64,000 bases of DNA from Macrolepiota albuminosa (Eukaryota; Basidiomycota; Agaricomycetes; Agaricales; Agaricaceae). Numbering within the stretch: the stretch's first letter is position 1; each line of letters begins with the position of its first letter. The notes below the pieces were generated by a model, which ran no database searches, had not been told where the DNA came from, and was given only the letters and a program-made list of their open reading frames with translations. The stretch lies in the NCBI GenBank assembly GCA_027475525.1, contig JAMWFC010000032.1, positions 1,674,001 to 1,738,000 on the forward strand, given 5' to 3'. A program made the position numbers and the translations under genes. This document shows positions 18,410 to 61,175 of this stretch, piece by piece.

Positions 18410-18542
18410 TGTCATGACCCACAGCATCATGACACTGGATACTGCTTAAATAGTGCCTGCAACATGTCAAGCCAGGCTTGACATTGTGGCCTTTTAGCCC
18501 AGTTGGTAGATCACTTCTATTGCAGGAGTTGTGGTCATCACA
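18410..18542 (+). repeat. 3' LTR of the TRIM
   Basis: 133 bp, no difference from the left copy seen by eye. Confidence 0.92.
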
Positions 18543-21001: not shown

Positions 21002-21042
21002 GGAGGGTCCCGGGGTGGGCCCGGAGGGGAGGGGTCGTGACA

Positions 21043-21056
21043 TCACCCCCCCCTCA
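21043..21056 (-). promoter_or_regulatory. Polypurine tract of chromovirus C
   Basis: Minus strand TGAGGGGGGGGTGA, touching the 3' LTR. Confidence 0.7.
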
Positions 21057-21169
21057 GCGCCGAGACCCTCCGAGGTGCGTGTAGCCGGTGGTTTGGACCG
21101 GGGTTCAACCGTGGGATCTGGCACCTGACTTGCCACGTATCAAAAAAAATTTTACTGTCAAGTTCAAAC

Positions 21170-21686
21170 ATGTCGCGTACGCCAACCCATTCTCTGACGC
21201 CCCCCCAAACTAACGAGGTCGCACCCCTCATGGCCTGGGAGGCCCGGGACGCACGGTACCGAGCGCGCCTGGACCGGGAGCGCGTGGCGGCGCTCGTGCA
21301 ACAACGTGAGTGGTTCCCATGCCGCTCGCTTGTCGCGACTGACCTTCCTTTTTCAGAACAACACAACATCACTGCCCCGGAGGCGGGTCCCAGCCGGCTC
21401 CTGGAGCCTGTTCCCGATGCGGGTCCCAGTGTCCCCCCCTGTTCGAGTTGTCCCGCGCCCACCTTTGCGCGGATGACTGTCCGCCCTCCCTGTCCGCACC
21501 CCCTTCCCCGCCCTAGGCTGCCAGCCCCCCGCTTCCGTCGCTCCGGGATGGCGGTGGGGACCGTTGCAGAGGTCCTGGAAGATCAACGCGTTGCATGGGC
21601 GGCCGTGATGCAGGAGCTGTTCGGGGAGGCCCTAGAGAGGCTCCGGGGCCTGCCTGCTCACGCCTGGTGTGTGAGCAATGGACCGG
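21170..21686 (+). CDS. Antisense gene of chromovirus C, 5' exons
   Basis: Plus strand, opposite to gag-pol. Exon 1 is 21170-21305 (MSRTPTHSLTPPQTNEVAPL, then EARDARYRARLDRERVAAL). A 51-bp intron follows, and exon 2 is 21357-21685 (AGPSRLLEPVPDAGPSVPP, a Pro/Ser-rich linker, then LEDQRVAWAAVMQELFGEAL). Exon 2 stops at a donor GTGAG that was the insertion point of element A; the gene resumes at 33007. D carries a decayed homologue. No named domain is visible in this part. An A-rich stretch just upstream (21140-21160) may belong to its promoter. Confidence 0.6.
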
Positions 21687-22642
21687 TGATGACGCCCAAA
21701 GTTTGGTCAGTAACAAATGTAGCAAAAGTGTTACCGTACCAAGAGTGTGCGTTGGGCGCGCTATAAGTGTGTTGAGGAGTCCCGGGCAGGTCCCAGAGAA
21801 CGCGTCTGTGAAAAAAGGGTAAAAGTCGGTAACGGAGTCGGCAAGTGTCAAGCGCTAAGGTAAAGCGCTTAAGAAAATGCGGTAAGTGAACACGGCAACG
21901 GGAAGCGGCAAGAGCACGGTAAGCTTAGCGAAGTTCTAAGCGTCGATAATGCCTGCCGTAGTTGCAAGGCGCGAGTATGTCGAGTGTTGGCGAACGTCTG
22001 TAACTGCCGATGAGTTCGACGTTGCCGACCGTAGCGTAAATGAGCTCTTGAGCGTAAGGGAGACTGAAGTAAGTGGGGGAAACTGTGGTCTATTCGTCTG
22101 CTATCCTGTCCTATGTACAAGTCGGTAAGTACTTTTATACTACAATGAGTTCGCCGTCGCCAGTGGCTAATGACGCCAGAGTGCGGTAAACTGGAAAATT
22201 TCAAAGGGGTAGCTCCAACGGTTTCAGATCCCTACCGTCCATTCAAGAGCCTTAGCGACGCCAGGCGACAGATCGCGAAGCTAAACCATCACTCCATCAC
22301 CCTTCTGTCTGTCAGAACACCTAAGCGACGTTGGGCGCCAAATCGAGACGGTAAGCGGTGTCAGACGCCAAGGTCAAACGCCAAGCTGTCTGTCAGTTTT
22401 TGATAGATCATCAGGCTTCTTGCTAAGCGCTGTCGTCAGTGACTGATGCCATCTGTCAGTTGTCATTCTGTCTGCCGATCAGCGCTATCACTGATTGGAT
22501 CTGCTTCTTGCCGTGCGCGGCCGTCAGAAATGGCTTAAAATAGGTAGAACGCGTGCGCTAAGTTCGGAACGAGTGCGGCAAGGTTTCCGGAGCCGGTGCC
22601 GAGCCTGCCGTTGATGCGCCTAACCTGTATAGGGTCCTATCA
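21687..22642 (-). repeat. 3' LTR of element A
   Basis: 956 bp, TGATGACGCC to CCTATCA. It contains about 13 CGGYAA words (either strand) where about one is expected by chance. Confidence 0.93.
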
Positions 22643-22653
22643 TCTCCCCCCAA
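22643..22653 (-). promoter_or_regulatory. Polypurine tract of element A
   Basis: Minus strand TTGGGGGGAGA, touching the 3' LTR; identical in B. About 25 further bases downstream on the plus strand are also shared with B. Confidence 0.75.
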
Positions 22654-22812
22654 CTGAAAAATTGACTGTCCTCAGTCACCAAATAAGGCTACCGTTACCG
22701 CTTTTGTGACAGGTGGTCCGTGCGTTCTTGAGATTTGGTTTATAGTCCTGGCGCATGAGTGTGGACTTCGTTTCTCCTCCCCATCTTTACCTGGCGCTTT
22801 AATTCAATTAAA

Positions 22813-25195
22813 ATGTCCTTCCGCATTCCAACTCCGCCTCCCGTTCCGTCTCGCGAGGCTCAAGACGCCGCCTCCGCGTATATCGAAAAGGCCAACCGCT
22901 TTGTCAGGCGCATCGAGGGTGTGGGCGCGGAGGCGCCTACAAACTTGGTTATTGCCGTTATGAAGTTGCTGGAGCGATGGTATGAAGTGCGGGTCCTTGG
23001 CGTGGGCTGGGATCGCGAGATAGAAGTGCGGGAGTGGTGTCGGGCCCGCTATGTGGACAACCGTGGCGCCGAGTGGTTAGCGCCGTTTTCTCGTTTCGTA
23101 AGTTGCTTTTGTCGCCTGTCGGGTCGCTAACTGATCGAGTTCCCTAGGCGCCTCCTCCCGTCCCGACTATCGAGGACGAATTGGAGGATATTTTGTCTGG
23201 CGCCTTGCCGATGACGGTAAGCGCCCCTGCGGCAGAGTAAGTATCTCTAACCCATTCTTTTTGACTTAGCTTTGGTCTGATCTGTCACCCCATAGCAAGC
23301 AAGAGGTGTTAGCGCCCCTTGCGCGCATGCAGGTGCAGGAGGAGATCGCGGCAAGGCAGGAGGAGGCCTCTCAAGACGCCCGCGAGATCACCAGGGCGCT
23401 AGAGGAGCGGGAACGGGTTGCCGCGTTGGCCGCAGAGATGGAGGAGGTTGCCGCGGGGAAGGCGCCTGCTGCCGAGAGGCAGGCGGTAGCTGAAGGGTCC
23501 GGCAAGAGTGGTCGCGTCGGCAGTGCACAGAGCCCAGCACTGCCGGCTAGCAGGAAGGGCTCCCCAATCAAGCCGGGTAAGGCTTTGAAGAAGGTGAGTT
23601 TTTGGCTTATCCTTGCCGCTGCCGTGCCGCGCTAACCACTCTTTCGAAGTCTCGCAAAGGAAAGGCTCCCCAGTACGCGGTAAGCGGTCTTTTGGAAGTC
23701 TGACTACTTTGTTTACCGTGATGTCTCTAGGCGCCCACACAGTCCAGCTTTGATGACAAGGAGCTGAAGGGGCTGCTGTTGCCGCGTCGCGAGGAGGCCG
23801 TCCTTGACGAGGGGCAGGAGGCCGGAGTGGTAATGGAGGAGATGAAGGGGAAGAAGACTGTTTCCTTGGCGACCCGGCAGGCGTTCAAGGAGACACGGGG
23901 AGCGGTAAGTGACTTTTCTTGTCTTTATTCTTTCTGCTGACTTTTTGCGCTAGTGCGACAAGTGCTGGGCCGATAACGACCCGGAAGGCTGTTGGTTCCC
24001 GACTGGGGCCCAGCCGTGTTATCGTTGCGGCGCCTTGAAACGCGCTTGCACTATCGACGGGGCGAAGAGTCGCGAGCGTGGCGGCGCGCCAGACGCTCTC
24101 GTCGAGAAGACGTTTTCCCGCGCGGTGTTGGTAAGGAGGGCGAGGGAGTTTGTGGAAGAGCAGAAGAAGAAGGTGGCTGCCGGCGGCATGGCAGCAATTG
24201 GACGAGCCTCCTTGGCGTTGCCGACGCGCCAAGGAGATGGATCAGAAACCGTCGGCAACCGAGGCGCCGGCGAGCGCCAAGGGACTCCGGTCCCAGCAAA
24301 ACGACAAGCCCCTTCCCCCAGCAAAGGGAAGGGCAAAGCAAAGCGCCAGCGTGTAGTTTCGTCGTCGCCCTCCCCCTCGCCAGCGCCAAAGGATACCGAG
24401 ATGGAGGACCTCGAGAAGGCGTTGGCGGCTAGTCGCCTCCCGCCTCGTGACCCAGAGGCTGGTCCAAGTAGCCTCTTGTCGCCTATCCAGTTGGCGGCCA
24501 GGTCCCTTGGCGAGGAGGAGGAGGTGGCAGAGCGGGAAGAAGCCCCCGCCGACGTCGAGATGGGGGAAGAGAAGGCAGAGGGGGCGGCAACGGGAGGGGA
24601 TGAGGATGCTGAAGGGGAGGAGGATGAAACCTTGGCGACGCAGCGCCAAGGCGACGAGGAGGTGGTAGCGGGAGAGGGAGAGGGAGCGGAAGGAGTCGCC
24701 AGGGAGGAACCTGAGTGGCGATGGCTGCCGCCTTACGGCAACGTCGCCCCTTGGGAGGTGTCAGATCCTGAGGACGTCGCAGGGCTGGAGCCGAGGCGCC
24801 CAGTGGTCGCCAGAGTCAACCCCGCCTGGACCCCCCAGCCGCAGCCGACAGTGACTGGCGACGCCTTTCAGTGGCTAGGTCAGGACCTCGTTTATCCGGT
24901 GATAGCGCTAAATCCTCGCGAGATGCTGGAGCGGTATTCGAGGAGGGCGGCAACGATGGCGACGTCGATGGAACGGGAACGGGAACGGGTGCGGGGACAG
25001 CTCATGGCGCTTCGCTTGCGCTACTCCAACTTGGGTCGCAGCCTCCACGTCTTGCGAGATTACCAAGCGGATTGCCAAGCCGCTATGGATTGGCAAGCTG
25101 CCAACAACATCTTGCCGGGCGATCTCTTGCCTCTTCGCGATTCCTCGTTGCCGGTGTCTGACGATTCCTTGCCGATGGATGACGAAAGCGAGTAA
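22813..25195 (+). CDS. Antisense Zn2Cys6-like gene of element A (intact)
   Basis: Six exons: 22813-23097, 23148-23236, 23296-23593, 23650-23679, 23731-23904 and 23954-25195. They total 2118 nt with no internal stop, about 705 residues, all GT-AG. The N-terminal helical domain ends REWCRARY, GAEWLAPFSRF. Then come a Glu/Ala coiled coil (about residues 130-220) and a cysteine cluster at the start of exon 6: C-x2-C-x8-C-x8-C-x2-C-x6-C, with CDKCW, PEGCWFPT, PCYRC and LKRAC. This resembles the fungal Zn2Cys6 DNA-binding cluster, with x8 where x6 is usual. A long acidic region follows. The C-terminal domain has GDAFQWLGQDLVYPV and ends DWQAANNILPGDLLPL. It converges on pol, whose stop is 432 bp away. 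B carries a clear homologue. DNA binding is inference. Confidence 0.8.
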
Positions 25196-25626: not shown

Positions 25627-28600
25627 CTAATCTGGTTCTTCTTCTTCAACTAGGGTCGGCAAGTCATCATCGTCCAATAGTTCGGTTTCTTCAAGTTCCC
25701 TAAGCTTGGCGGTGTCAATATCTAGCGCCTCAAGCGGCAAATCGATTCGTTCCCTGGCGAGATACGGTAGTAGGCGAAAAGCGGCAACAGGTCGATGTAG
25801 TACTGAACCATCTAATTCACAGAGCACGTAAGCGCCTCCACGGTTACGAGAGATAACTACCAAGGGTCCTAGATAGCGAGGGCGCATCTTCTTGTTGTAT
25901 GAAGTTTCGATTTTGGAGTTGCGCATGAGCACTAGCGCTCCTCTCGGGAAGTTGTAATCTTTGATGGTAGCGCTATGCTCGGTTTCGAATCGTAGGGCTG
26001 CTTGGCGACGTGCGCTAAAGACTACCTCGTGAAGTCGCTCCAAATCTTCTTTCCTTCGTTGGAGGTCAATAGCTCGTCTGGCGATAAGGTCGGTAGTCGC
26101 TAAGATACTGTTGGGTGGTGGCTGAAGGTAGGTCGCTTCTATAATGTCGGCAGGGAGTAAAGGATGGGTGCCAGTAGCCGCGTAGTAAGGAGAACAACCC
26201 ATGCGCTTACGAATGGTAACTCTTTCCGACCAAAATACTGAGTGTGTCGCTTCACTCCAACGAGACTCGTCGCCATCGACAGCCTTGAAGAGCGCTTGCC
26301 GAACGTCAAAGTGGGGTCTCTCTACCAGGCCATTGGCGCGTTTGTTGTAGCCAGACACTCGAATGTGGTGAATGTTGTATTTCTTGGCGAGGTACGTTAG
26401 CGCTTTGATGATGGGCGCACCGTTATCCGTGACGATTTCTCTTAGCGCTCCCCAACGGCAAATGACGTCCTCAAATAGCCACTTGGCGACCGCGTCGGTA
26501 TTTTCTCTCTGAAGCATTCGAAATTCAGGCCAGTGGATTAGCGAGCAGCGACCTTGAATGATGTACTTGTAGCGACCAGATTTGGGCATGTGCATGGTGT
26601 CGACGTAGATTTTGCTGAAGAGGGGAGCTGGCGTTGCAACGGTTGGCGGTATGAGCACTTGGCGCGTTTGTTGGATTTGGCAGAGGTGGCAAGTCCTGAT
26701 GTACCATGCGATGTCGGCGCTAGCGTGTGGCCACCAAAAGCGTTCTAGCAGAGAAGCTCGGGTAGCGTACAGACCTCTATGTCCTAGCTCGTCATGCATA
26801 GCGCGCAAGACTCGTAAGCGACCTTCTGGCTTGATGATCAGCTTGTGTGCGCCATCTCGATTTCGTCGCCAAAGTCGGTTGTCGGTAAAGAAGAAGTGGG
26901 TAGCATAGCGGATAAAGGTAGCGTATTGTTCGTCGGTAAGGTCTGGGGGTCGCTTAAGGTCTTGTATCCATTGGTCGACTAGTAACAAGCGACTGTCTTC
27001 CGCCTTTGCCTTGGCGGATCGGGGGACGGCATCGTAGGTCAGGTTTCTGCTGTCTTCTCTTAGCGACTGGGGTTCCTGTACGACTTTTACTGGAGGCAAG
27101 TCTTGTCCAAGGATGCTTGCCGTGTAGAATGTGAGGGGTGCGCTAAAGGTCTCGGGGCGGTAAGGGACAATGGGATGCAAAAATATGCTGGTAGGCTGTT
27201 GCCGTCGTAGTAGGGGAATCGGTTGTTGTATGAGGTGCACGAAACCATGTAGTCGGTCGACCCAGTCCTCGAAATCGCTATCAGCCTGAGGGTCCACTAC
27301 CGGGTCGCCAGGCTGCCGTGGTCGCCTAGAGAGTCCATCTGGTCCGTGGAAAGAGCTCTTGACGTGTACCAACTCAAAGTGGAACATGAGGATGGCGACT
27401 ACCCACCGATTCATGCTAGCGGATGGCTGGATATCGGGATTCTGCAGCATGCCTTTGATGTACCTAGCGTCGACTTCAACGATAAGGTTCCGTACGCCAA
27501 TCAAATACATCTTTAGCGACCGGAAGGCTTTGAAGAGTCCATAGAGCTCTAGCTTAGGCTGACTGTAGCGAGACTCTCTGTCGTTTAGCGTGATAGACCC
27601 AAAGCGGTTGTAGCGTCGCTGTTTTCGATTGTCGCTAAGGCACTGGCACAGGAAATAGCCAACGGCAATGTACGAGGTATCCACCGCCAAGATAACAGGG
27701 TCGGCAGAGGTATAATCGATGGGGACTAGGGGCTTGGCGTCCTGCAGAGCTTTTACTAAGTCGCGTTGTGCAGTGACCTGGTCTGGCCCAAATTCAAAGG
27801 GCTCGTTAGCGCGGGTGAGTCGGTTAAGGGCATGTGCGCGATGGGCAAAGTTCTTAACGAATATCCTAAGAACGCCAACGGTGCCAAGAAAGGCGCGAAC
27901 TTCAGATAAGTCGCGGCAAGGGCCCCAGCGCTCTAGGAGTGCTAAGCGAGACTCGTCGGGAACGCGACCGTCGGGAGTGCAGATGTGACCAAGTATTTTG
28001 AACCTTGGCGCGCAAAGGAGGAGTTTGTGACCGCTAAAAGTACCACCGCTATACTTCATACGTTGGAGGACTCGATTGAGCAACTGGAAGAACTCCCATA
28101 GCGCTAAGCGAATGTTGGAGTTGTCGGGATGGGTTGCCGGTAAGCCGTTCACGAGTCGCCAATCTTTGGGGCCTTTGACGCCAACGTCATCAATGAAGCT
28201 AAGGACGTTATGCGGTATCTCTGGTTGGAGGATGAAAGTAATGTCGTCGTGGAATATAGGGACTGAGTTTGTCCAGCCCATCGGCAAGGTGACTAGGCGC
28301 AATGCGCCAAACGGAGTTTGAAACGTGGTGAGGTCACGGGAAGAAGGGTGAATCAAGCGCTCATCGTAGCCAACGTAGAGGTCAAGGGTGGCGCCACAAA
28401 CACGCCTGGCAAAGGACTCGGCAAAGTGGTCAGGGAAAGGCGGTACGCCAGAGTGTCGAATGGTGACTCTATTCAGCGGCTCAAGACTGTGGACTATGCG
28501 TAGATTACCGTTCTTTTTGAGGACGCAGAACCAACGGGAGCGGTAAGAACTATTGGAGGGCTCGTAGACGCCAGCCTGTATCTTGGTCCTAATGATCTGG

Positions 28601-29410
28601 CAGACCTCGGCTTCGATCCCAGGCGGTAACGGTCGGTTGTGCTCAGTCCACGGTACGTGAGGAATGGTCGGGATGACGACAGGCGGAAAGAAATCTGTAC
28701 GTAGACTGCCACGTTCTGAGTCCTCCCAAGCAAAGGCTTTGTCTTGCTTAGCGACAAGATCGGTAAGGACGTTCAACTCATCTTTGGTCAAAAATCCTGT
28801 GTCGTGCTCCTTGGCGAACTGCTGCTGGCGTTCCTCGGTAAAACGTCCTGTCGGCTGAAAGGGTGGCGGGTTCGGCGATAAAATAGGTATGTCGGCAAGA
28901 GGGTCGCCAATAATCTGGCGCTCGATCCTAAACGTCTCGGGAGAGTGCGTAGCGATGGGCTTTGTTTTAAGCGCAACTGGCTTATATTTCTTTTTAACTT
29001 GTACCCCTTTCCTTTTGGGAGCGTTAGCTTGGTTATATACAGAAGTGGAAAGGGGAACTGTAGCCTGAGGAGCGGCAAGTCCAAGAACGGCAGGAGACGA
29101 GGCTCCGGGAAGGGTAGTGAGATACGTATCGGTAGACGCAATATTTTGAAATGATTCAGAAGCGGTAAGGTACAAGTAGGCTAGAGCTGAGTCGGTAATA
29201 TCTGGGTTTTTCTGAGAAAGCTCAGCGTCGGTAACGGTAGAGGAAAGCAAAACTTCTTCGTCAAGATAAGCGGTAGATATAATATTTACAAGACCAGTTG
29301 AATGGTCATATTCCAGCGTTAGCGCTACATCTCCGTGATCGTCGCCAATCACCTCCTCGATGGTCTGTGAAAACACCGGTGGGGAGGCTCGTTGGCGTGT
29401 TGGTCGGTAA
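25627..29410 (-). CDS. Pol of element A: RT, RNase H, integrase
   Basis: Open frame of about 1250 codons. RT carries SNSSYRSRWFCVLKKNG, a GATLDLYVGYDERLIHP segment, LVTLPMGWTNSV and the metal box FIDD (LSFIDDVGVKG). RNase H follows with VILAVDTSYIAVGYFLCQ and VEVDARYIKGML. The integrase has an HHCC finger (HDELGHRGLYATR to CHLCQIQQ) and a D,D,E core (IVTDNGAPIIKALTYL, NGLVERPHFDVRQALF). It ends with a GPY/F-like module (RPRYLGPLVVISRNRGGAYV) and an acidic tail. All catalytic residues I can place are present. The frame lies -1 relative to gag and overlaps its end by about 60 nt, so a -1 frameshift or reinitiation is needed. Confidence 0.9.
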
Positions 29411-31667
29411 ACTCCGGGGGCTTAGCGCGGGCGCCTTTTCGTTGTCCCCTAGGGAACGTTGGCACCGTTCGTCGGATTCCGGAGTTGGGGTCGCTAATTG
29501 TGAGGGTCGTTTCCTCGTCGGTAACTGTCTTGACGACTGATCGCGCCAAGACGTCAAAAGGTCTGCCGAGTAATAAGTCGTATGCTGGGGAGCGTAAAAT
29601 GTGTATCTGGAGGTAAAAGGTAATGTCGCCAAGGGTGCACGGCACATTCTTGGCGAGGCCGAGGGATCTGTCTACCGTACCGTTAGCGCTCTGCATGTTT
29701 AGTATCACCGTAGGGTCGTAAATAAGGCCTAAATCGTTAGCGACTTCTGCTGCCATAGAAATAATCTGAGACCCGCTATCCACGATTGCCTCTACCTCGT
29801 GCTTGTTGTCTACGGTTAGCGCTACCGAGCGGATAGCGTGTGATTCTTGGGCGACGGTAAGGATTGCTGGGTCTTCGCCGTGGTCGACTGACCTAAGGTA
29901 GGTCTCCACTGGGTCCACAGAGGTGGCGTTAGCGATGGGGTCGGCAAGAGTGTCTTCAGTGTTTTGAGGGTCGATGGTAACAGAGAAACCAGGAAGCGCG
30001 TCGTCGAGTTCATCAACTTCGGCAACGGCTGTCGCCAAGGGTCGTCGAGGAGTGACTGCCGTCTTGACTTGGTTGCGGACGTCGGGAGCAATACTACAAA
30101 GCTCTTCTACTGATAAGGTAACATTGGTTTTCATGATGCGGTTAAAGACGTGGTTGGATTTCTCGATATCGAATATTGGCGCAGTAGGTCGGTAGCCACC
30201 CTCAGGACGTTTCTCGGGAGCGGCAAAGTTTCGTTGTGCGGGAGCGTGATAACGGTCGGGAATCCCTGAGTAGGGATGGAGAGGCGGCAAGGGCGGTTCG
30301 GGAGCGGTAGCGGACGACGATGGTTCTGAGGCAGGAGCAGGAGCAGGGGCAGTGGCAGGAGGTGCGGCAGGAGCAGGTGTCGGTAACTTGCTAGCGGGAG
30401 GCATCGGCTTGTATCCTTTAAGAGGTTGTTTAGGCTGCTTAACTTCAACCCCATCAAAGACCTGGTTCTTTAGCGAATCTAATTCCTGCTGCAGCTTGGC
30501 GATACGCTCTTCCCGCGAAAAAGTAGGGTGGTCGCCAACGCTGTCGAAATGTAGGACCTCGTGAATCATCTGCTGTTGGGTCGCCTGTTCCGGGTCGGGG
30601 TTGGCGTTGCCAGATAGCGTGCCGGTAACGATTTGTCCTGGATTGCGCCTATGCCATTCATCTACCCGCTCCTGGAAGGACTTCTTGTCTGGGTAGTTGG
30701 GGATGGTGGCGCCAGTGGTGAGGACTATCTTGCCGTCGATAGCTCGTCGAATTCTACCTTGGCGAACGTAATTCTCGAGGGTAGCGCAGCGTCCTCTAGT
30801 CATGGTGTGGCCAATTTCCCCACAGAAGTGGCAAGGGCCAGGTGCGGGTACGTTAGCGGGTCGGTTAGCAGTCAGGTTGGTGGTAATCATAGTTTCGATA
30901 CGTGTCATCGCGGAAGCGACAGCGGCGGTAATAGCAGCATTGAGCTCCTCTTTCTTAACGAAGTCGGCAACAGGAGGCGGGATGGGAATGATACCGTTAG
31001 TTCGCTCAGGGGGTGGGCTCGTCCTAGCGCGCTGCAATCCAACGCCAGTGTCCGTTCCCTTGAGAACCCATTTACCGGCTTCAAAGACGTCGGCAACGTT
31101 ATAGGGCTCGTCTGGGTGATGAGCCTGATGAACTATCTCTAGGCGACGAGCAATACGAGTCCACAGTGAAGTCGGGATGCCTTGCTGGAACAGGCGACGC
31201 TCCTCGTTAATATATAGCTTGCCGTTCTGCAGGAGCCACCTAGCGATTTTCTGGAACTCGCGGTAATACGTAGAGAATGCGCCAAGAGAAGAAGTGCCAC
31301 TGTCGAAAGATTCCTGTACTAGTTTCTGTAACTCGTTTACCGTGTATCGGGTAGCCTCCTCGGCGCCAGGGTACAGCTGGATTACTGCCGTCTTCCAGTC
31401 CTCATACGAAGCGCCTTGGGCGGGAGCTGTCGGCGTGGCGGGAACGAGCGCTGCAAACTCGGAAAGACCAGTCCAAGTCTCTGCCGTGTCGTACGATACG
31501 TATCTTGCCGCATACTCCTTCATCTGCGTGTGGTCGGTAATGTTACAGTCTCTGAATAAATACTCCAACTCCTTGAAATACTGGGAGAGCTCCCGTGGCT
31601 TGGTCTCGTCCCATTTCGGTGCCGAGAAGTGGTTGCGTGGCGGCATGCGTTGGACTTGTTGTTCCAT
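29349..31667 (-). CDS. Gag-protease of element A
   Basis: 772 codons from an ATG at 31667 (MEQQVQRMPPRNHFSAPKW), a start conserved in B. The capsid part has YFKELEYLFRDCNI and ARYVSYDTAETWTGLSEF, and is followed by the zinc knuckle CHFCGEIGHTMTRGRC. A Pro/Ala-rich linker leads to the retropepsin (IVDSGSQIISMAAEVAND, then SPAYDLLLGRPFDVLARSV). The protease is thus fused to gag instead of pol. The frame stays open upstream of the ATG for about 110 codons with sensible sequence similar to B's, so a non-ATG start further up is possible. Confidence 0.9.
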   Translation of the reverse strand: MEQQVQRMPPRNHFSAPKWDETKPRELSQYFKELEYLFRDCNITDHTQMKEYAARYVSYDTAETWTGLSEFAALVPATPTAPAQGASYEDWKTAVIQLYPGAEEATRYTVNELQKLVQESFDSGTSSLGAFSTYYREFQKIARWLLQNGKLYINEERRLFQQGIPTSLWTRIARRLEIVHQAHHPDEPYNVADVFEAGKWVLKGTDTGVGLQRARTSPPPERTNGIIPIPPPVADFVKKEELNAAITAAVASAMTRIETMITTNLTANRPANVPAPGPCHFCGEIGHTMTRGRCATLENYVRQGRIRRAIDGKIVLTTGATIPNYPDKKSFQERVDEWHRRNPGQIVTGTLSGNANPDPEQATQQQMIHEVLHFDSVGDHPTFSREERIAKLQQELDSLKNQVFDGVEVKQPKQPLKGYKPMPPASKLPTPAPAAPPATAPAPAPASEPSSSATAPEPPLPPLHPYSGIPDRYHAPAQRNFAAPEKRPEGGYRPTAPIFDIEKSNHVFNRIMKTNVTLSVEELCSIAPDVRNQVKTAVTPRRPLATAVAEVDELDDALPGFSVTIDPQNTEDTLADPIANATSVDPVETYLRSVDHGEDPAILTVAQESHAIRSVALTVDNKHEVEAIVDSGSQIISMAAEVANDLGLIYDPTVILNMQSANGTVDRSLGLAKNVPCTLGDITFYLQIHILRSPAYDLLLGRPFDVLARSVVKTVTDEETTLTISDPNSGIRRTVPTFPRGQRKGARAKPPEFTDQHANEPPHRCFHRPSRR

Positions 31668-32047: not shown

Positions 32048-33003
32048 TGATGACGCCCAAAGTTTGGTCAGTAACAAATGTAGCAAAAGTGTTACCGTAC
32101 CAAGAGTGTGCGTTGGGCGCGCTATAAGTGTGTTGAGGAGTCCCGGGCAGGTCCCAGAGAACGCGTCTGTGAAAAAAGGGTAAAAGTCGGTAACGGAGTC
32201 GGCAAGTGTCAAGCGCTAAGGTAAAGCGCTTAAGAAAATGCGGTAAGTGAACACGGCAACGGGAAGCGGCAAGAGCACGGTAAGCTTAGCGAAGTTCTAA
32301 GCGTCGATAATGCCTGCCGTAGTTGCAAGGCGCGAGTATGTCGAGTGTTGGCGAACGTCTGTAACTGCCGATGAGTTCGACGTTGCCGACCGTAGCGTAA
32401 ATGAGCTCTTGAGCGTAAGGGAGACTGAAGTAAGTGGGGGAAACTGTGGTCTATTCGTCTGCTATCCTGTCCTATGTACAAGTCGGTAAGTACTTTTATA
32501 CTACAATGAGTTCGCCGTCGCCAGTGGCTAATGACGCCAGAGTGCGGTAAACTGGAAAATTTCAAAGGGGTAGCTCCAACGGTTTCAGATCCCTACCGTC
32601 CATTCAAGAGCCTTAGCGACGCCAGGCGACAGATCGCGAAGCTAAACCATCACTCCATCACCCTTCTGTCTGTCAGAACACCTAAGCGACGTTGGGCGCC
32701 AAATCGAGACGGTAAGCGGTGTCAGACGCCAAGGTCAAACGCCAAGCTGTCTGTCAGTTTTTGATAGATCATCAGGCTTCTCGCTAAGCGCTGTCGTCAG
32801 TGACTGATGCCATCTGTCAGTTGTCATTCTGTCTGCCGATCGGCGCTATCACTGATTGGATCTGCTTCTTGCCGTGCGCGGCCGTCAGAAATGGCTTAAA
32901 ATAGGTAGAACGCGTGCGCTAAGTTCGGAACGAGTGCGGCAAGGTTTCCGGAGCCGGTGCCGAGCCTGCCGTTGATGCGCCTAACCTGTATAGGGTCCTA
33001 TCA
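32048..33003 (-). repeat. 5' LTR of element A
   Basis: 956 bp. Relative to the left copy it has CG in place of TG near 32773 and CG in place of CA near 32841; I saw no other difference. Confidence 0.93.
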
Positions 33004-33006
33004 CCG

Positions 33007-33700
33007 GTGAGTGGGCTCCTACCTCTTTTTTGGTCGTTCTGCTGACTTTGGTGCAGTGCTTGCACTGCGCCCGGCGCGTGGTGCCTTGAGGGAGGAGGCG
33101 GCGGCCGGGCAGGATCTGGAGGAGGGTTGGGAGGCGATGATCCGGGACCTGGAGGAGGCCAGGGTCGCCTGGGGGGAAGCGGAGGCTGAGCTAGAGGCTC
33201 TGAGGGCGAGGCTCGGGCAGGGAGTGGGGCTTCCGGAGGGTGAGGGGGGGGGGAAGCGGAGGCTGAGCTAGAGGCTCTGAGGGCGAGGCTCGGGCAGGGA
33301 GTGGGGCTTCCGGAGGGTGAGGGGTTGGCGGAGGCCCTGCGTCGGGACGTGGTGGTGGCCCGTATGGCCTCATTGAGTGAGTCTCCCTATCCCCGGGTTC
33401 GATTTCCCACTGACATTTCCAGGCTGGGCCTGGGAGCACCGCTTACTCTTGGACGGGGCGGCCGCGGCACTCGCGGCGCTGCAGGAGGGGCAGTGCCCTG
33501 AGGTGACGACTCCCGGGGTAGAACGGGGCCTCGACTTGTTGGGGCGGGTGGTGTCGGCACACCGGCGGAGGAACGTGCCCACCCCCGGTTCCTGGTTCGA
33601 GAGAGTTTTGGACGAGGGTGAGTCTCTCCCGTCCTGGGAGCAGTTGGCAGAGGAGGTACTGTGGGAGCACGGCCCGGGGGGGATGGGGGAGGGGTTCTGA
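33007..33700 (+). pseudogene. Antisense gene of chromovirus C, 3' part
   Basis: Resumes after element A. The donor GTGAG at 33007 is intact, and the acceptor near 33056 leads to CLHCA, the first two cysteines of the cluster seen whole in D. An internal deletion then removes the rest of the cluster and about 500 bp that D keeps, and the frame breaks. Beyond it are a coiled coil (DLEEARVAWGEAEAELEALR), a 77-bp duplication, a short intron and a C-terminal part (GVERGLDLLGRVVSAHRRRN, then SLPSWEQLAEEVLWEHGPGG). Product probably non-functional. Confidence 0.6.
33171..33324. repeat. 77-bp direct duplication (4)
   Basis: In the coiled-coil part of C's antisense gene; it shifts the frame. Confidence 0.93.
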
Positions 33701-34004
33701 GGCTGGCCGGGGGAGGGGGGCGAGGGCCGATAGTTTTTGTTTTCTCTCCCTTTCTTGTCGTTTGTTCGTTTGGTCCTGGCTGCTACTGTAGAGTATGTAA
33801 AGTAGAAAATGTATATACTTGGTTTCCCGGGGTAAAGGGTGGTGTAAGGGGCGAAAGAAGACTGAAAAACAGAAAGCACCTTGCCCAGGTTCCGGGACAC
33901 CACTATGAAATGATACTAAAAGAGAGTAAGATCTAGAAAGGGAAGGCAGAAAGTATACATGGGAGTTGAATCCCTACTGAGCCCAGAGGTGGGGGTTACG
34001 CCCA
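33701..34004. other. Spacer between the convergent antisense gene and pol of C
   Basis: About 300 bp with a TATATAC stretch near 33810. D has a matching segment at about 60910-61140. Probably the two 3' ends; nothing else seen. Confidence 0.4.
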
Positions 34005-34419: not shown

Positions 34420-35462
34420 TGATGACGCCAACTGTGGTTGGGTGCGCTGGACGTATACGCAGTACAACGCCGTCTCCAGCGCCTGGCGTACGGGTTTGTG
34501 AGGAGTCCCGGCAGGGTCCCGGTGTGCTCAAGCAGAGGTGATAGGGCGATGCGCTAGACGATAGCGCCTCGGATGCTACCTAGCAAGTGGTAAGCGTCGT
34601 AGTTTAGGGGAAGTTATAGAGAAAGAAACGAATAGCGCAGCGTAGCGTGCCCGTAGGTGGCACCGTAAACGACGAAGACGAGATAGACGAAGCTAGCGCC
34701 GAACTTGGTGGCAAAGTCAGGCAACGCTAGCGCGATTTGAACGCTAAGTGTAACTGGGTGCTCAAGAGGTTACGATTCGTTGTTATATACATGGCAAGTA
34801 GCTAGTTTTTATACTATGCGCTACATTATTTCCAAAATAAGTCCATTGACGGCGCTACCAATTAGCGCCTCTCTTCGTGACTGTAGCTAACGGCCACCTG
34901 TCAACGGCGACCTGCAGCGCATGGGTGACGGCGACCAACGGCGACTCTAAAACTACTTAGAAGTGGTACGAGTTTGCTCACTTTTTGATGTAATTTAATT
35001 GGCCATGCCATCCCGGGGTATGGTCGGGGAATCCTCGACAGACGCCGTGAGCGCTAATTCCGGCGCTAAACATTGTACCATATTTTGATAGATTTAAATG
35101 TCGGGTCTGCGTGTATCCTGTCTCATCGTCATTGATTCTTTTAGACTTCTGATTGAGGTGCCTCGGTGATTGACAGCGCCAATTGCTAACTCCTTCCAGT
35201 ACTGATCGGGGTTTGGTCAGAGTCCCCTCCCGCCGTTATGCTAGCGCTATGAGTCCTGAGTCTTCTTGGTCTTCAAAGTAACTGAGTGGAGTGCGCTGAG
35301 GGGCTGATGCTGGTGATTGAGATGAATGGATAAGTCTTGCCATAGAGCGCCCGCGCTAGGGCTGCTCTGTACCCAAGGCTGGTCGCTAGAGCCTTTAGTG
35401 TGTCAAGTGTTGGTCGGCCTATAATGTCCCTTGATGCGCTCAGTCCGAGTAGAAGCCTATCA
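34420..35462 (-). repeat. 3' LTR of element B
   Basis: 1043 bp, TGATGACGCC to CCTATCA, rich in TAGCG and GCGCTA words. It keeps CpG at all five sites where the right LTR has TpG or CpA. Confidence 0.92.
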
Positions 35463-35473
35463 TCTCCCCCCAA
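35463..35473 (-). promoter_or_regulatory. Polypurine tract of element B
   Basis: Minus strand TTGGGGGGAGA, identical to A. Confidence 0.75.
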
Positions 35474-35525
35474 CTGAAAAATTGACTGTCCTCAGTCAAA
35501 CGCCGTCGTTAATTTGACTGCGCTA

Positions 35526-35679
35526 CGGTCCGTATAATGCCGCCGGCGCCTTATAAAAGTCGTTTTCCGTACTTCACCTTCCCGTGTTTTCCTTCCCATC
35601 TTCGGTCCGTATAATGCCGCCGGCGCCTTATAAAAGTCGTTTTCCGTACTTCACCTTCCCGTGTTTTCCTTCCCATCTT
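35526..35679. repeat. 77-bp direct duplication (5)
   Basis: Doubles the putative promoter of B's main antisense gene, including its TATA box. Confidence 0.95.
35549..35558 (+). promoter_or_regulatory. TATA box for B's main antisense gene
   Basis: CTTATAAAAG (approximate position), about 60 bp before the ATG once the 77-bp duplication is collapsed. Confidence 0.5.
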
Positions 35680-35683
35680 CCAG

Positions 35684-38437
35684 TATGTCCACTTCTTTCG
35701 ACGCCTCTGCTCTCCGCAATTTCCTGGCTAAGGCCTCCTATTTATTTGATCGCGCTAAGTCTGTCGGTCCCGCCGATGCGCCACAAACCGTCCCTGGTAT
35801 TATGCAACTCTATCGGCGCTGGCTCGTGGTCCGCGGCTCCGACAGTTCCTGGGAGCGGGGTGACGAGTCCCTGGTATTATGCAACTCTATCGGCGCTGGC
35901 TCGTGGTCCGCGGCTCCGACAGTTCCTGGGAGCGGGGTGACGAGTTCGCGAGTGGTGCGTGGCCCGGTACCGTGAGTATGAGGGTGCCGATTGGTTGCGC
36001 CCTTTCGCGGACCTTTTCGTAAGTTTTCTAAGTTTGATTTTGGCGTTGTGGCGCTAAGGTTCAGCGCCCATACTAGGCTCCCTCCTTATCTGACGAGATC
36101 GACGCGTTGTTGGCTAGCACCGAGGTCAGCGAAGTAAGTCCTTCCTTCTCCTCCCCCCCTCCTTATCTGACGAGATCGACGCGTTGTTGGCTAGCACCGA
36201 GGTCAGCGAAGTAAGTCCTTCCTTCTCCTCCCCCCCTTTTTCCACTGTTAATCCTTGAGTAGTCGGTTGCTACGTCTCCCACCGTCGCCAGTCTTCCTAC
36301 TGCCCCCTCGGCCTCTACTGTCCCTTCTGTTCCTACCGCCCCTCCTTCTTCGACTTCTGTTCCGCCTCCTTCCGTTCTTGGCAGCCCTTTTCGTGGCGCT
36401 ACTTCTTCCACTCGCCCTGCCCCAAGCGCTGCTTCTCCCGTCCGTACTGCCCCTCCCCATTCGGCCATCAAACGTATTGCCGTTTCTCGTAGCGAGCCAC
36501 GACCCGGCCCGACGCGCCCAACTTCTCACGGTCCTCCGCGTAATTTTGCCATTGTTATTGAACGAGCGCCTCCTGCTCGTGCTAGTTCTCCTCCCAAACG
36601 TACCGTGCGTTCTTTTCCTATCTTCCTTACTCCATTTTTCTGACTTCTCCCCCTTCCAGATCAATCTCCCTGCTCGTGTTCCCCCTTTGTATGTCGTAAG
36701 TGCTTTGCTTGTTGTCGCTAGACTTTAGCGCCTAAATGTTAATGTCGATAGGCGCCTAACCAGACCATGTTCACCGACGCGGAGCTTCGCGACCTTTTGC
36801 GTCTTCGCCGTGATACTACCGTCATTGATACCGGCGTTCCGGCTGGTGTCCAAGTACTGGGCGGCAAGAAGAAGGTTACCGTTGCGCCCTTGGAGCGTCG
36901 CGCGTTTAGGGCAAAGATTGGCGCGGTAAGCACTGTTTTGCCCCTTTGGAGGTTCATGCCGTCGCTGACTTCTTTCTTAGTGTGACAAGTGTTGGTCTGA
37001 GAACGACCCTGAGGGCTGCTGGTTTCCTACCGCGTCTCTGCCTTGCTATCGGTGCGATGCGTTGAAACGAGGCTGCGCCTTCAACGGGATTCGTACTCGT
37101 GAACGTGGTAGGGACGCCATTATGCAAAGGAACTATGAGCGCGCAGTGTTGGTTCGTAACGCCCGGGACTTCGTGCTGCAGCAACGTGATCTGGCGGCTA
37201 CTCACCAACCCACGGTAATCAGCGCAGCCAGCCTGGCGCTGCCGACTACCCAGGATGGTACTACCGTGGCGGCACCTTTTGCTCGCTCTCCTCGTCGTCC
37301 CGTTCTTTCGAAACGTAAGCCTGTTGTCGCGTCTCCTGGCAAGAGCCCTGGTAAGCGCCGCGAGCTAGCGCCTGCTACGCCTGTGGTTTTGTCTTCGACC
37401 GAGTCTTCTACGGATGAGGGGGAGGGCACCGAGAGGGATGCCGAGGGAGAGGATGATGATGAAGCTGAGCCCGTTGTTGATGCCGATGCGCTATTGGCGG
37501 TACGCGCTCTCCTGCTTCGCCTTACTCCCCCTATCGCCGCTAACCCTCGTCAGAGTGGCACCAGTGGTAACCAGTACGCATTTTCCTAACTTCTTTTTCC
37601 TTCGCGTGCTAACTTCTTGACTGATAGGTCCCCCACTCCCGTTCCCGTCGTCGTGGCTATCCCTGCTGCCGAAGATGTCGTTATGTCTGACGCTGGCGCT
37701 ACCCCCGCCCCCGAGTCGGTTGCGGCTAGCGACCCTCCGGTTGCTCTCCCTATCACTCCGTCCCTTACTCCTCCCCACAGCTCCTCTTCTTTTCCTAGTA
37801 GTCGCGAGACTTCTGCGGCGCCGGAATCCGAAGGAACCCTGGTGCCGGAAGGTGAGCGTCGTCGCCGCTGGAGATACTTGCCTCCCTACGGCATCCATCT
37901 TTCTTCCGCCAGAGCTATGTCCCCCGGCGACGAGCGCCATGAGTGGACACCCCGTGCGCCTGTAACTGTCTCCATCTTTCTTCCGCCAGAGCTATGTCCC
38001 CCGGCGACGAGCGCCATGAGTGGACACCCCGTGCGCCTGTAACTGTCGGGTACGTCCGTTTTTGTTTGTTCCCCCTTTTCTCCCCTTTTCTAACCTTCCA
38101 TAAGTTCGATCCCTTTTGGACTCCCCCTCCCGCCATGCGAGTTTCTGGTGACGCCTTCCCTTGGCTCGGGGACGAGTTCTCCTATCCTGTTACCCCTCTC
38201 CGCCCTTCTGCCGACCTTCGCCAGCAACTCCGCCATATCGAGGATGCGACCGAAGCCGTTGGTCGCGAACTTGCCAACCTGCGTCCTCGCGTTTCCACCT
38301 TAGCTCGCCGCGAGCGCCTCCTTCTCGAGCTTCATGACGATATTACAGCTGCGCTTGAGTGGCAAGCGAGTAACTCGATCCAGGACGGGGACTTGCTTCC
38401 TTTGGGCGATCCCGCCCTTCCCGAGTATGATCCGTAG
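35684..38437 (+). CDS. Antisense Zn2Cys6-like gene of element B
   Basis: Homologue of the A gene with the same exon plan. The first exon (MSTSFDASALRNFLAKASYL) ends in REWCVARY and GADWLRPFADLF directly before a GTAAG donor, exactly where A has its first intron. The cluster exon starts at 36981 after TTTCTTAG with CDKCWSENDPEGCW, PCYRC and ALKRGC: again C-x2-C-x8-C-x8-C-x2-C-x6-C, at the same intron boundary as in A. The C-terminal domain has GDAFPWLGDEFSYPV and ends WQASNSIQDGDLLPLGDPAL. Three 77-bp duplications (35790, 36080, 37894) and a one-base slip near 35945 break the frame as assembled, so I cannot say whether the real gene is intact. Middle exons are approximate. Confidence 0.7.
35790..35943. 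repeat. 77-bp direct duplication (6)
   Basis: In the first exon of B's main antisense gene. Confidence 0.95.
36080..36233. repeat. 77-bp direct duplication (7)
   Basis: Spans an exon-intron border of B's main antisense gene. Confidence 0.95.
37894..38047. repeat. 77-bp direct duplication (8)
   Basis: In the region preceding the C-terminal domain of B's main antisense gene. Confidence 0.95.
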
Positions 38438-38958
38438 TTGCCGACCCTTAGCGCTTTTAAACTTTTATGGACTTAGTCTTTTTGATACGAACTTTGTAGT
38501 ATGTGATCCTATAATAAACGCCTCCCTTGGCTTCAAATCGTCAGTTTGTAAGTAATCAAAAGAAAATAAGTAAAAGGGGAAACGCTCAGTAGATCATCAT
38601 GGCGCAAAAACCCCTGTTGCCGGCGCGGCCCAATAGCCATTACCGCGCCAGCCTAAGTAGAAAATAGGAACTGTCTGGAAATAAATAAGCGGATCCATGT
38701 AAGAAGTAACGCGTATAAAGAAATAGAAAACCAGTGATCGCTTTGTGGCTATTCGGTGATGGTGAGCATAAGCGCTAGGTCTAGAATGGCGATTTCCTTT
38801 CTGCGCGGTCCAACCATGAGTCAAGCGCCTCTCATTGGCTAGTATCTTCGTCAGGGTCCTCGTTCTTTGTGAAACGTCCTCCCACGCTGTCGCCGTTCTA
38901 ACTCTAGCCGTGTCCTATAAATTGCATATGCATCAACTGGATCTCATCAGTCTTCACG
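38438..38958. other. Spacer after B's main antisense gene
   Basis: AT-richer 3' flank; the segment AAACGCTCAGTAGATCATCAT near 38580 recurs near 25436 in A. No ORF of note. Confidence 0.45.
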
Positions 38959-39530
38959 ATGACCAGCCCGACCGGCCTGGTGTGGACTCCCCGCTGTGAT
39001 CGTGCTCACGTCATGATGGACCCTCCAACTTTCCTAGAGCGTGTCACCTCTTTCCTTCACCACTATCCTGCTGGCAGCGTGCCAGAACTGGACGATGGCG
39101 CCCTACTTTCCTAGAGCGTGTCACCTCTTTCCTTCACCACTATCCTGCTGGCAGCGTGCCAGAACTGGACGATGGCGCCTCAATTAAGTCGTCGCTGCCG
39201 GTTGCTGCGTGCGGCCTGTGAGATCTGGGCGGATAGCAAACCTCTGATGCAGTTTGGTATGGAGAAGGCCTGGAGTCGCATTTTTCAGGTGCGCTCCTGC
39301 CTTTTTCGCCCTCTTCTTTGCTGACAGTCGCTAATTAAAGCAAATTCCTCCCACCTCCACGCGAGAGCGTCTTGAGCTGCTGCTGGAAGAAAGCCACTAT
39401 CTGGTCCGTCTGTCCTTACCCCGTTACTCCTTTCTTTTCGAGAGCGTCTTGAGCTGCTGCTGGAAGAAAGCCACTATCTGGTCCGTCTGTCCTTACCCCG
39501 TTACTCCTTTCTTTCCTGTCTAACCGCGCC
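38959..39530 (+). CDS. Second antisense ORF of element B
   Basis: Starts MTSPTGLVWTPRCDRAHVMM. A helical stretch follows (PPTFLERVTSFLHHYPAGSV, then CRLLRAACEIWADS and MEKAWSRIF), then a GT-AG intron after IFQ and a second exon rich in Leu and Arg. Its N-terminal half resembles the first domain of the main antisense gene in pattern (F-x2-R/K, two helices, a Leu-Arg run), which suggests a shortened paralogue. No cysteine cluster is visible. Two 77-bp duplications cut it. No function assigned. Confidence 0.4.
39028..39181. repeat. 77-bp direct duplication (9)
   Basis: In the first exon of B's second antisense ORF. Confidence 0.95.
39362..39515. repeat. 77-bp direct duplication (10)
   Basis: In the second exon of B's second antisense ORF. 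Confidence 0.95.
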
Positions 39531-39867
39531 TTCTTCACCAGTCTCCTCGTTCTTCTACCGGTGGTCGCCTCTTTCGTGGCCCCTCTGACGGAGGGACGCG
39601 TCTCCTCCTGTTGCCCGCTCCTTGATTTGCTTCCACCTCCCATGTCGTTTATGTAAGGTGATCTTCCCTTCTCCGTAGCGCCACAGAACTGACAGATTTT
39701 AGATTCTTGATTTCCAATGTCGTCGTATATTAAATGCATCGTTGTTGTCGCCCCCCCCCCCTCGTGATTGTTTCGCCCATGTAAAAGTTCCTAAGTCGCT
39801 GCGACCCTGCAAGTAGCTAGAGATATTTTATGGGCTCTGCCGCCCTTAAGTTTGTTAGTATTTCATC
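39531..39867. other. Spacer between antisense ORFs of B
   Basis: Pyrimidine-rich stretch with a run of ten C near 39750. Nothing coding is supported. Confidence 0.4.
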
Positions 39868-40140
39868 ATGCCAGCACCCTCCATACTTCTCCCAGATCCG
39901 GAACTTCCTCACCGCCCCGCGATCTTGGATCGTATTGAACACTTCCTGGCTATTATGCCTACGGGGGGTTTCCCTCATGAAAACGGAAATACCATGACCC
40001 TGGTGCGCCGATATCGCATCCTGTTGGACGCCTCCACCGAATGGATGATAGACCAGGATGAGTCTCTGGTCACGGTTCGCCTCCTGTTAGCGCGTATCTT
40101 GTTTGTTGCTCATGTGTTCGCAGTCGACTATTACGCCTAG
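39868..40140 (+). CDS. Third antisense ORF of element B
   Basis: A 90-codon ORF (MPAPSILLPDPELPHRPAIL) with helices DRIEHFLAIMPTGGF and LVRRYRILLDASTEWM. The pattern matches the N-terminal domain of the second ORF and, more weakly, the main antisense gene. A Pro/Ser-rich region with two 77-bp duplications follows to about 40790 and may be a spliced continuation. No function assigned. Confidence 0.4.
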   Translation: MPAPSILLPDPELPHRPAILDRIEHFLAIMPTGGFPHENGNTMTLVRRYRILLDASTEWMIDQDESLVTVRLLLARILFVAHVFAVDYYA

Positions 40141-40270
40141 CGCAGCAAGTTTGGCGAGCCTTCTTCGGGAGACTGGCAGTTTGGTTAGTCAATAGCTCTT
40201 TCCTTCTGACCTTGGGTTGCTAATTCCATGCCGTTGCCAAGAGCCTTTCATGGCTTCCCCTTCCGCTCCT

Positions 40271-40424
40271 GGTTGAGTCCCGTGCCCGTAGGGCAGTCCT
40301 CGACCGCGTGGTCTTTCCTTTCCCGCCCTCGCTTCAGCCCTCCTACGGGTTGAGTCCCGTGCCCGTAGGGCAGTCCTCGACCGCGTGGTCTTTCCTTTCC
40401 CGCCCTCGCTTCAGCCCTCCTACG
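40271..40424. repeat. 77-bp direct duplication (11)
   Basis: In the Pro-rich stretch after B's third antisense ORF. Confidence 0.95.
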
Positions 40425-40541
40425 GGAGTGGGACCTTTCCCCCGAACTCGCTGCCCCTCCTCCAGGCGCTCCTCCTGCGCCAACTCCTAGCGCTCCAGTA
40501 CCTTCATCCTGCATTCCTCCCGCCGTACCTCGCAACGCGCC

Positions 40542-40695
40542 GCCTTCGAGCACTCCGGTGCCTACACCAGGCGCCCCTCTTCCTCCTTCAGGCGGTCCTC
40601 CCTCCTTTAGGCGGCCCAGCCTTCGAGCACTCCGGTGCCTACACCAGGCGCCCCTCTTCCTCCTTCAGGCGGTCCTCCCTCCTTTAGGCGGCCCA
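40542..40695. repeat. 77-bp direct duplication (12)
   Basis: In the same Pro-rich stretch. Confidence 0.95.
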
Positions 40696-40884
40696 GGAGC
40701 GAGTCCGAGGTTCTCGTCGCCGGTCTTCTTGGCGTAGCTCGTAACGTAGTAGCCGTAGTTGATTTTGTGTCCTCGCCTGTACCATAGCTATTTATGCCAT
40801 CCAATATGCCTTCCGAAAGGGAAACATGACCTAAGTTTACTTAACGGGGGCGCTAACACCTAGCGCCTCGTCCTTCGCCTTCAT

Positions 40885-47381: not shown

Positions 47382-47752
47382 ACTAGCTGGCGTCGACGTC
47401 GTGGTGGGAATAGTAGTGTTAGTGGTAGTTTTGCTTGGCGTAGTTGTAGTCGGTACTGGCTCGGGTAATTCTGAGTCGCTAGGTTCTGGCGATAATGACC
47501 TAGACAGCTCTTCCAAAGGAGTAAGCGGTGTATGGTTTTCACCTGCTAAGTATTCGAACGGTTGGGAAAATGGAAAGAAGCTTTCAGCCAAGCTATCTGG
47601 AGCGGCTTCAAGCTCCTGATCTAAAGTCTGCCTCGGTAGCGCGCCTGGTAAGTGTGGTGACTCAGTTAAGGTTTGTTCAAACGCGCTCTCCAATAGGAGG
47701 CGGCGCTGTCGCTGGGCTCGAGTTTCCGGCGGAATTCTGCCTCAATAGAACC

Positions 47753-47770
47753 CCTCGCGGTGGGCTCCAA
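47753..47770 (-). promoter_or_regulatory. tRNA primer site of element B
   Basis: Minus strand TTGGAGCCCACCGCGAGG, the same sequence as in A. Confidence 0.7.
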
Positions 47771-47772
47771 AA

Positions 47773-60909: not shown

Positions 60910-61175
60910 GGGGGCCTTGTCTTTCTTGTCATCTTTTCTCTTCTTGTTGTTGTACCTATACTGTAGAGTAGCGTAGTAAAAATGTATATACTTGGCCTTC
61001 CAGAGTCAAAGGGTAGTGTAAGTAATATGGCAAAAAAAACTGGAAAGAGCACCTTGCCCAGACTCCGGGGCGCTACTGTGGAAAAGTACTAAAAAGGTAA
61101 AATATAGAGAGGGGGAACAGAAAATATACATGGGAGTTGAATCCCTATTAAACCCAGAGGCAGGGATTACACCCA
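60910..61175. other. Spacer between the convergent antisense gene and pol of D
   Basis: Matches 33701-34004 of C. Contains AATGTATATACTTGG. No coding sequence supported. Confidence 0.4.

Follow-up and report, generated by a model that had tools for sequence, protein, structure and literature searches.

The window analysed here, a 64,000-nt stretch of the Macrolepiota albuminosa genome, carries LTR retrotransposons that we call A, B, C and D (Table 1). Element A is a young Ty3/gypsy retrotransposon: it has two LTRs that are 99.8% alike (2 of 956 sites differ), it is flanked by a 4-bp target duplication (CCGG), and it encodes a gag-protease and a pol with RNase H and an H2C2 integrase. A reverse transcriptase match (PF00078) was absent among the Pfam matches of this pol at E up to 0.001. 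The gag of A gave a match to DUF4100 (PF13352) just over the cut-off, and its translation holds a CCHC-like stretch of unusual spacing (CHFCGEIGHTMTRGRC), with no zinc-knuckle Pfam match at E up to 0.001.

On the opposite strand, between the end of pol and the 3' LTR, lies the gene that is the subject of this report. The original prediction placed it there, and the coordinates and strand of gag, pol and LTRs bear this out. The model that we rebuilt from the sequence also reproduces the six exons that had been proposed, in frame from ATG to stop with GT-AG borders throughout: the gene spans 22813-25195 (+), with five introns and 2118 nt of coding sequence for 705 aa plus the stop. Retention of any single intron leads to an early stop. 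Under the set intron rules, the longest open stretch that splicing could give measured 2124 nt for the real sequence, and none of 200 dinucleotide shuffles exceeded 732 nt. The product has cysteines at residues 293, 296, 305, 314, 317 and 324, which is the predicted arrangement C-x2-C-x8-C-x8-C-x2-C-x6-C. In the leader of the gene, a TTTATAG at 22739-22745 is kept in 12 of the 12 copies shown; we read it as a TATA-like word. Given the antisense orientation, the introns are not spliced from the genomic (sense) RNA and so survive each round of transposition.

Table 1. Features of elements A to D in the window (positions count from the first nucleotide of the window)
Feature	Positions	Strand	Remarks
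Element A, whole	21687-33003	-	11317 bp
3' LTR of element A	21687..22642	-	956 bp; 21 CGSYAA sites
Leader of antisense gene, LTR to ATG	22643..22812	+	1 CGSYAA site; polypurine tract on - strand
Exon 1	22813..23097	+	N-terminal helical domain
Intron 1	23098..23147	+	50 nt, GT-AG
Exon 2	23148..23236	+	
Intron 2	23237..23295	+	59 nt, GT-AG
Exon 3	23296..23593	+	variable region
Intron 3	23594..23649	+	56 nt, GT-AG
Exon 4	23650..23679	+	30 nt
Intron 4	23680..23730	+	51 nt, GT-AG
Exon 5	23731..23904	+	
Intron 5	23905..23953	+	49 nt, GT-AG; end abuts first cysteine codon
Exon 6	23954..25195	+	six-cysteine cluster (aa 293-324), acidic linker, C-terminal domain, stop
pol of element A	25627..29376	-	1249 aa open frame; RNase H, H2C2 integrase
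gag-protease of element A	29349..31667	-	772 aa open frame
5' LTR of element A	32048..33003	-	956 bp; 22 CGSYAA sites
Antisense gene of C, 5' part	21041..21686 (start approximate)	+	cut by insertion of A
Antisense gene of C, rest	33004..33903 (end approximate)	+	intron, then cluster, broken by stop codon
Element B region	34420..48900 (approximate ends)		enriched in GCGCTA and GGCGCT
Antisense gene of B, homologous to A's	35634..38446	+	interrupted by 77-bp tandem duplications
Antisense gene of D	59302..60910 (approximate ends)	+	first cysteine codon is TAT

Element A belongs to a set of nested insertions between 20100 and 56400: with its CCGG duplication it sits at the donor of the pre-cluster intron of C's antisense gene, and B was apparently inserted between C's antisense gene and C's pol, to judge by the spacing of repeats. 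The expectation that B carries a homologous gene with shared introns was confirmed, both in the homology itself and in two introns, the one that follows exon 1 and the one that precedes the cluster. For C and D the proposed homology stands in part. Place, strand and the pre-cluster intron agree with A and the cysteine layout is similar, but sequence similarity to A was not found, nor did comparing profiles of the two clusters, A and D, reveal any. C and D belong to a group with a chromodomain at the end of pol, as seen in the D-type copy L049 (PF00385, E 8.8e-16); the pol pieces of C and D themselves gave RNase H, reverse transcriptase and integrase matches. Of 148 scored matches to the D-type gene, 63 had a scored reverse transcriptase within 15 kb and 85 had none scored nearby; among the 63, the gene lies on the opposite strand and the 3' side in 60 and on the same strand in three. 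The cluster pattern was present in 19 of 20 D-type loci, mostly as C-x2-C-x6-C-x15-C-x2-C-x6-C. A cysteine codon directly preceded by an AG acceptor was seen in 17 of the 19; the exceptions are L045, with TAT as the codon, and L053, with AA in place of the acceptor. The A and C/D genes share place, strand and a similar cysteine layout, a common design that may be convergent or inherited.

Searching the 100-Mb assembly for further A-type copies, we scored at least 63 places and read 36 copies, A included, namely the best 30 of those scored and six chosen ones. All 36 show the same order of LTR side, antisense gene and pol end, with the gene antisense, and 177 of their 180 introns keep GT and AG at the projected positions. 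The frame is complete in 24 of the 36 copies when splice-site shifts of up to 8 nt are allowed. One of the 24 (L025), in which the first donor is AT and the frame needed shifted sites, was dropped, leaving 23 intact copies, 20 of them distinct. Seen from the pol side, 104 A-type integrase matches were scored; the antisense gene was among the scored gene matches for 45, and in all 45 it lay on the opposite strand and the 3' side. Ten of the 59 scored integrase matches without a listed gene were read: nine have a diverged copy of the gene, and one (L066, G000:C78:1887750-1891950) is an A-type element that has no antisense gene and still has a long pol frame. L066 is 98.7% (LTR side) and 99.8% (pol side) like the gene-bearing copy L074, and represents either a clean recent loss of the gene or an assembly join. 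With the exception of L066, the gene is at the same place in every A-type copy read. The contrary expectation, homologues that are mainly ordinary host genes, failed: none of the copies read was one, and all 36 lie in the element. The cluster exon of the B type was scored at no fewer than 150 places. In seven copies (L012-L015, L032, L034 and L035) AAAAAA words are abundant (34-74 per 4.3-4.5 kb), which points to long A-runs.

To characterize selection we compared 20 distinct intact copies in the 182 pairs with dS above 0.05; the 12 of 36 copies without a complete frame and L025 were excluded, as was any pair with dS up to 0.05. Overall dN/dS of the antisense gene was 0.112 (ratio of means), a value biased toward constraint by the sampling of intact copies only, and it was 0.036 for the pol tail of the same copies. 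By region the ratio was 0.078 (aa 1-125), 0.27 (126-235), 0.063 (236-291), 0.015 (292-362, which holds the cluster), 0.17 (363-400), 0.11 (401-548) and 0.069 (549-682). Differences in the gene at codon positions 1, 2 and 3 numbered 10104, 7959 and 39214. Within this sample of intact copies the figures demonstrate purifying selection on the antisense gene, strongest in the cysteine cluster. The neutral ratio that would have spoken against the original prediction was thus not seen, and its central claim, a long-kept accessory gene, is upheld by a dN/dS of 0.11 among intact copies together with the conserved splice sites and the constant place in the element. Judged from sequence, 22813-25195 is a real, selected gene.

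The gene differs more between copies than the DNA on either side of it. In the divergence profiles L066, which has no gene, was left out; the pol distances of copies L065-L072 rest on the stretch of about 200 bp that these copies cover. Among 43 copies the mean pairwise difference was 0.130 in 22480-22579, 0.047-0.051 in 22580-22779, 0.16-0.32 across the gene including its introns, 0.22 at 25280, 0.10 from 25380 and 0.05-0.10 in the pol tail. Ten copies that span the LTR gave 0.066 for the LTR, 0.060 for the leader, 0.245 for the gene and 0.076 for the pol tail. The introns of the gene (0.18-0.29) diverge at least as much as exons 6 and 1 (0.14-0.17), with 0.09 in the LTR end and 0.06 in the leader, and synonymous divergence was 0.64 in the gene and 0.26 in pol; relaxed constraint as the sole cause of the gene's divergence hardly fits these values. 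In 850 of 903 pairs the difference is larger in the gene than in pol. Pair distances in the gene correlate with those in pol at 0.13 and with those in the flank at 0.49 (903 pairs); in the ten-copy set the correlation is 0.58 with pol and 0.30 with the LTR. Single pairs show mismatches of both kinds: the distance between L017 and L026 is 2.4% for pol and 13.9% for the gene, that between L023 and L026 is 6.3% and 0.1%, respectively, and L036 and L067 are 32% apart in the gene and 1.5% apart over some 200 bp of pol, all that could be compared. Since divergence jumps from about 5% to 16-32% at the borders of the gene and falls again in pol, the antisense gene behaves as an old, exchangeable cassette, with alleles that seem to predate the flanking DNA. 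Such a mismatch of gene and pol is what template switching between packaged RNAs would produce.

We next consider the product. In a structural model of a homologue (P0001), a helical N-terminal domain is predicted with confidence, together with a long helix in the C-terminal part; this supports the helical N-terminal domain predicted for A. AlphaFold2 applied to the cluster gave a pLDDT below 50 over model residues 1-38, and a comparison of the product with solved structures yielded no outstanding match. A and its homologues fall into no convincing Pfam family. The description of the protein as Zn2Cys6-like holds for the six-cysteine layout, but neither A nor B matches PF00172 (Zn2Cys6, Zn_clus) and the cluster is not confidently folded; one of two D-type proteins matched PF00172 below the cut-off (E 2.1, 9 bits against 21 needed). 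With the Gal4-type Zn2Cys6 domain, A shares six cysteines, two C-x2-C pairs and a second half of the form C-x2-C-x6-C. The first half of a Zn2Cys6 domain is spaced C-x2-C-x6-C, with the usual basic residues; in A it reads C-x2-C-x8-C and presumably lacks these residues. The x8 spacing is found in A and B and x6 in D-type copies. Directly from this anatomy, the cluster would be expected to bind nucleic acid. Protein searches with the A-type gene returned two overlapping sets of 20 and 31 matches, all of them hypothetical proteins of Termitomyces genomes, which suggests that the host is an agaric close to Termitomyces; a search with the D-type cluster returned no match. Retrotransposon genes are often masked in annotations, and for that reason absence of matches in other genomes says little.

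The second unusual property of element A is a six-base word. CGSYAA occurs in A at 195 sites, on both strands (109 and 86) and about once per 58 bp, when 26.1 sites are expected from dinucleotide shuffles (7.5-fold). All four variants are frequent, with 41-55 sites each against 5-7 expected. Per kb, the LTRs hold 22-23 sites, the gap that follows the gene 21, gag and pol 16-17, and exons and introns 14-15. The excess is 6-10-fold in LTRs, introns (4 sites), gap, gag, pol, exons and the 5' leader of A; the single site in 22643-22812 amounts to 6 per kb, or 3.7-fold. Elsewhere the excess is 0.8-fold in positions 1-16500 of the window and in D, 1.3-fold in C, 2.0-fold in B and 2.3-fold in 17000-20100 (7 sites). 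In pol and gag the word uses all codon phases, unevenly, and exon 6 is without one of the six; uneven phases and a missing one mean that coding plays some part in the pattern. Pairs of CGSYAA spaced exactly 13 nt apart occur in A's LTR (21880-21906, 22336-22379) four times per LTR, with 0.27 expected; 4-6 such pairs were seen in L065, L067, L068, L071 and L072 and 1-2 in L041 and L039.

The word was also followed into distant alleles of the gene. L065 and L067-L072 have 30-40 sites in the gene region, compared with 36 in A, and 11-19 of these are at the same places. Taken with L041 and L042, the nine distant copies have 29-40 sites, and 0.31-0.53 of A's sites are in place. Across 13 copies, places were kept at a mean of 0.49 for CGSYAA and 0.29 for 154 control classes, two of which do as well. 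Inside the gene CGSYAA is the commonest class of its form, with others close behind (36 sites against 29 and 26). In three alleles with 55-56% identity to A across aa 236-696 the cluster is conserved, with 2-3 differences in 32 residues, and the same three retain an excess of CGGCAA and CGCCAA.

Element B leans to other words: GCGCTA occurs 70 times (9.9 expected) and AGCGCC 61 times (10.6 expected), together GGCGCTA, in counts slightly inflated by the 77-bp duplications. Two B-type copies lean to the same words, L078 strongly and L079 weakly. CGSYAA has a density of 4.6 per kb in B against 17.2 in A, and GGCGCT has 61 sites in B against 16 in A. The two sets overlap: GCGCTA is found 39 times in A, where 8.2 are expected, CGCTAA is found 33 times in B, where 9.4 are expected, and both words are part of GCGCTAA. 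The word sets of A and B are related but differ in mix, and are not cleanly separate. Among D-type loci, L046 is unlike its relatives in having 11 GCGCTA (1.1 expected) and 11 GGCGCT (2.2 expected). In the chromodomain-type reverse transcriptase regions of L001-L008, CGCCAA occurs 6-11 times per 3.5 kb, compared with about 1.5 expected, and the other three variants are not raised; the excess in D-type pol is limited to CGCCAA and CTTGGC.

How might gene and word be connected? Our preferred reading, which we hold tentatively and rate a little below an even chance, is that this is a functional spliced accessory gene whose cluster reads CGSYAA and whose protein favours its own element by activation or anti-silencing. 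The cluster would bind the word along the whole element, and the protein would coat copies of its own family and keep them transcribable, whether through activation or through relief of silencing. Outside the cluster, the protein may meet fast-changing partners, with the result that old and very different alleles are kept, and template switching would shuffle these alleles between elements. We are least sure of the step that leads from binding to anti-silencing. A word spread over the whole element fits the marking or opening of the element's own chromatin better than it fits a plain promoter factor. Half of A's words contain CGG, and the Zn2Cys6 class has a preference for CGG. Counting against such an address are the overlap of words between A and B and the GCGCTA of L046, and L066, with its long pol frame and no gene, also counts against the proposed function.

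Several other readings were weighed. One, which we think rather unlikely, is that the product acts on RNA or in the particle (in packaging or nuclear import), that the cluster binds loosely, and that CGSYAA is unrelated or otherwise read. The reader of the word may indeed be another protein, and a host factor could fill that role; the product of the plant element Grande is reported, in what PMC7264820 says of it, to be nuclear. The presence of the word on both strands suits double-stranded DNA better, however, and gag already has a CCHC-like stretch, albeit one outside the Pfam zinc knuckles. It is unlikely, too, that the product is a repressor or copy-number controller that binds its own DNA and lowers sense transcription, with allelic differences setting mutual limits. 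Its anatomy would be identical to that of the binding protein that we favour, divergent alleles with conserved flanks fit self-limiting types, and PMC11963269 mentions that retroviruses have regulatory antisense genes, but a word over 11 kb including gag, pol and introns would exceed what a promoter repressor needs.

It is quite improbable that the word has no reader at all, its excess being a by-product of codon choice or mutation bias beside an accessory gene with some other function. The excess of CGCCAA and CTTGGC in D-type pol, which comes without the other variants, could be codon usage, and the uneven codon phases in A's gag and pol point the same way; against this, the excess in A's LTRs and introns equals that in coding parts for all four variants, and distant alleles regain sites at new places. 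A captured host gene riding as a passenger seems highly improbable. Introns as in host genes and the lack of a Pfam family would suit it, and host copies may exist elsewhere, for instance among the Termitomyces hypothetical proteins; yet the same arrangement recurs in every one of the 36 copies read, and selection acts on the element copies.

VANDALs are DNA transposons. They offer the closest parallel to our preferred reading, a reader protein with its own word: in Arabidopsis, VANDAL families differ in short words, and the element-encoded VANC protein causes loss of DNA methylation (PMC5735166). As VANC is described in PMC5735166 and PMC10398659, it is likewise encoded by the element and finds a short word repeated in that element, and related families have different words and both conserved and variable protein regions, as we propose for A. 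VANC words, according to these accounts, lie in non-coding tandem repeats, whereas A's word is similarly dense in coding and non-coding parts, and binding has been shown for VANC but would have to be presumed for A's protein. By analogy, mushroom LTR retrotransposons might possess VANC-like self-recognition, with a six-base address present about 200 times and shifted in relatives, old alleles kept as if balanced against a host factor or each other, and perhaps the same design in chromodomain elements; we regard this wider picture as doubtful, though conceivable. If true, sequence-specific self-recognition evolved in retrotransposons too, besides plant DNA transposons, and the element's own genes are constrained to spell the address, which would have consequences for how transposons are dated and for codon-based analyses of them.

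Antisense genes themselves have precedents. Plant Retand/Tat elements carry an antisense ORF with a TRP28 domain (PF04195; PMC11963269) and, like theirs, A's gene is antisense between pol and the 3' LTR. The 41 members of the A-gene alignment matched 14 Pfam families at E up to 1, and PF04195 was none of these. The word 'intron' does not occur in the main text of PMC11963269, nor does the account given there mention an element-wide word; here there are five introns, the host is a fungus, and CGSYAA is found throughout A. In fungi, the Ty3/gypsy element Boty of Botrytis has an antisense gene, brtn (Zhao et al. 2011), cited in PMC7264820 and PMC8365987 and included by the former among ORFs between pol and the 3' LTR. 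By description, which is the level of this comparison, brtn is also an extra antisense gene in a fungal gypsy element, and its host is an ascomycete. Such genes in LTR retrotransposons have been noted for years, and the account of PMC7264820 leaves their role undetermined. Our literature search did not find A's antisense gene family described. New here are the gene as an old exchangeable cassette with sharp divergence borders, and the element-wide excess of CGSYAA. The antisense gene thus offers two handles, a candidate target word along the whole element and natural alleles with sharp borders, which make its function directly testable.

Finally, we looked at the tandem repeats of the window. 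Two-copy repeats of 77 bp with 98-100% identity account for 23 of the 26 tandem-repeat rows (for example 35790-35945, 36080-36237, 37894-38047, 39028-39179 and 40271-40426) and also occur in other loci; none is inside A. They break frames in B and in other copies, and look like assembly overlaps retained twice rather than biology, the repeat length matching an assembler k-mer of 77. Longer tandem repeats are found at 7370-8067 and 11180-11614, with units of 311 and 150 bp.
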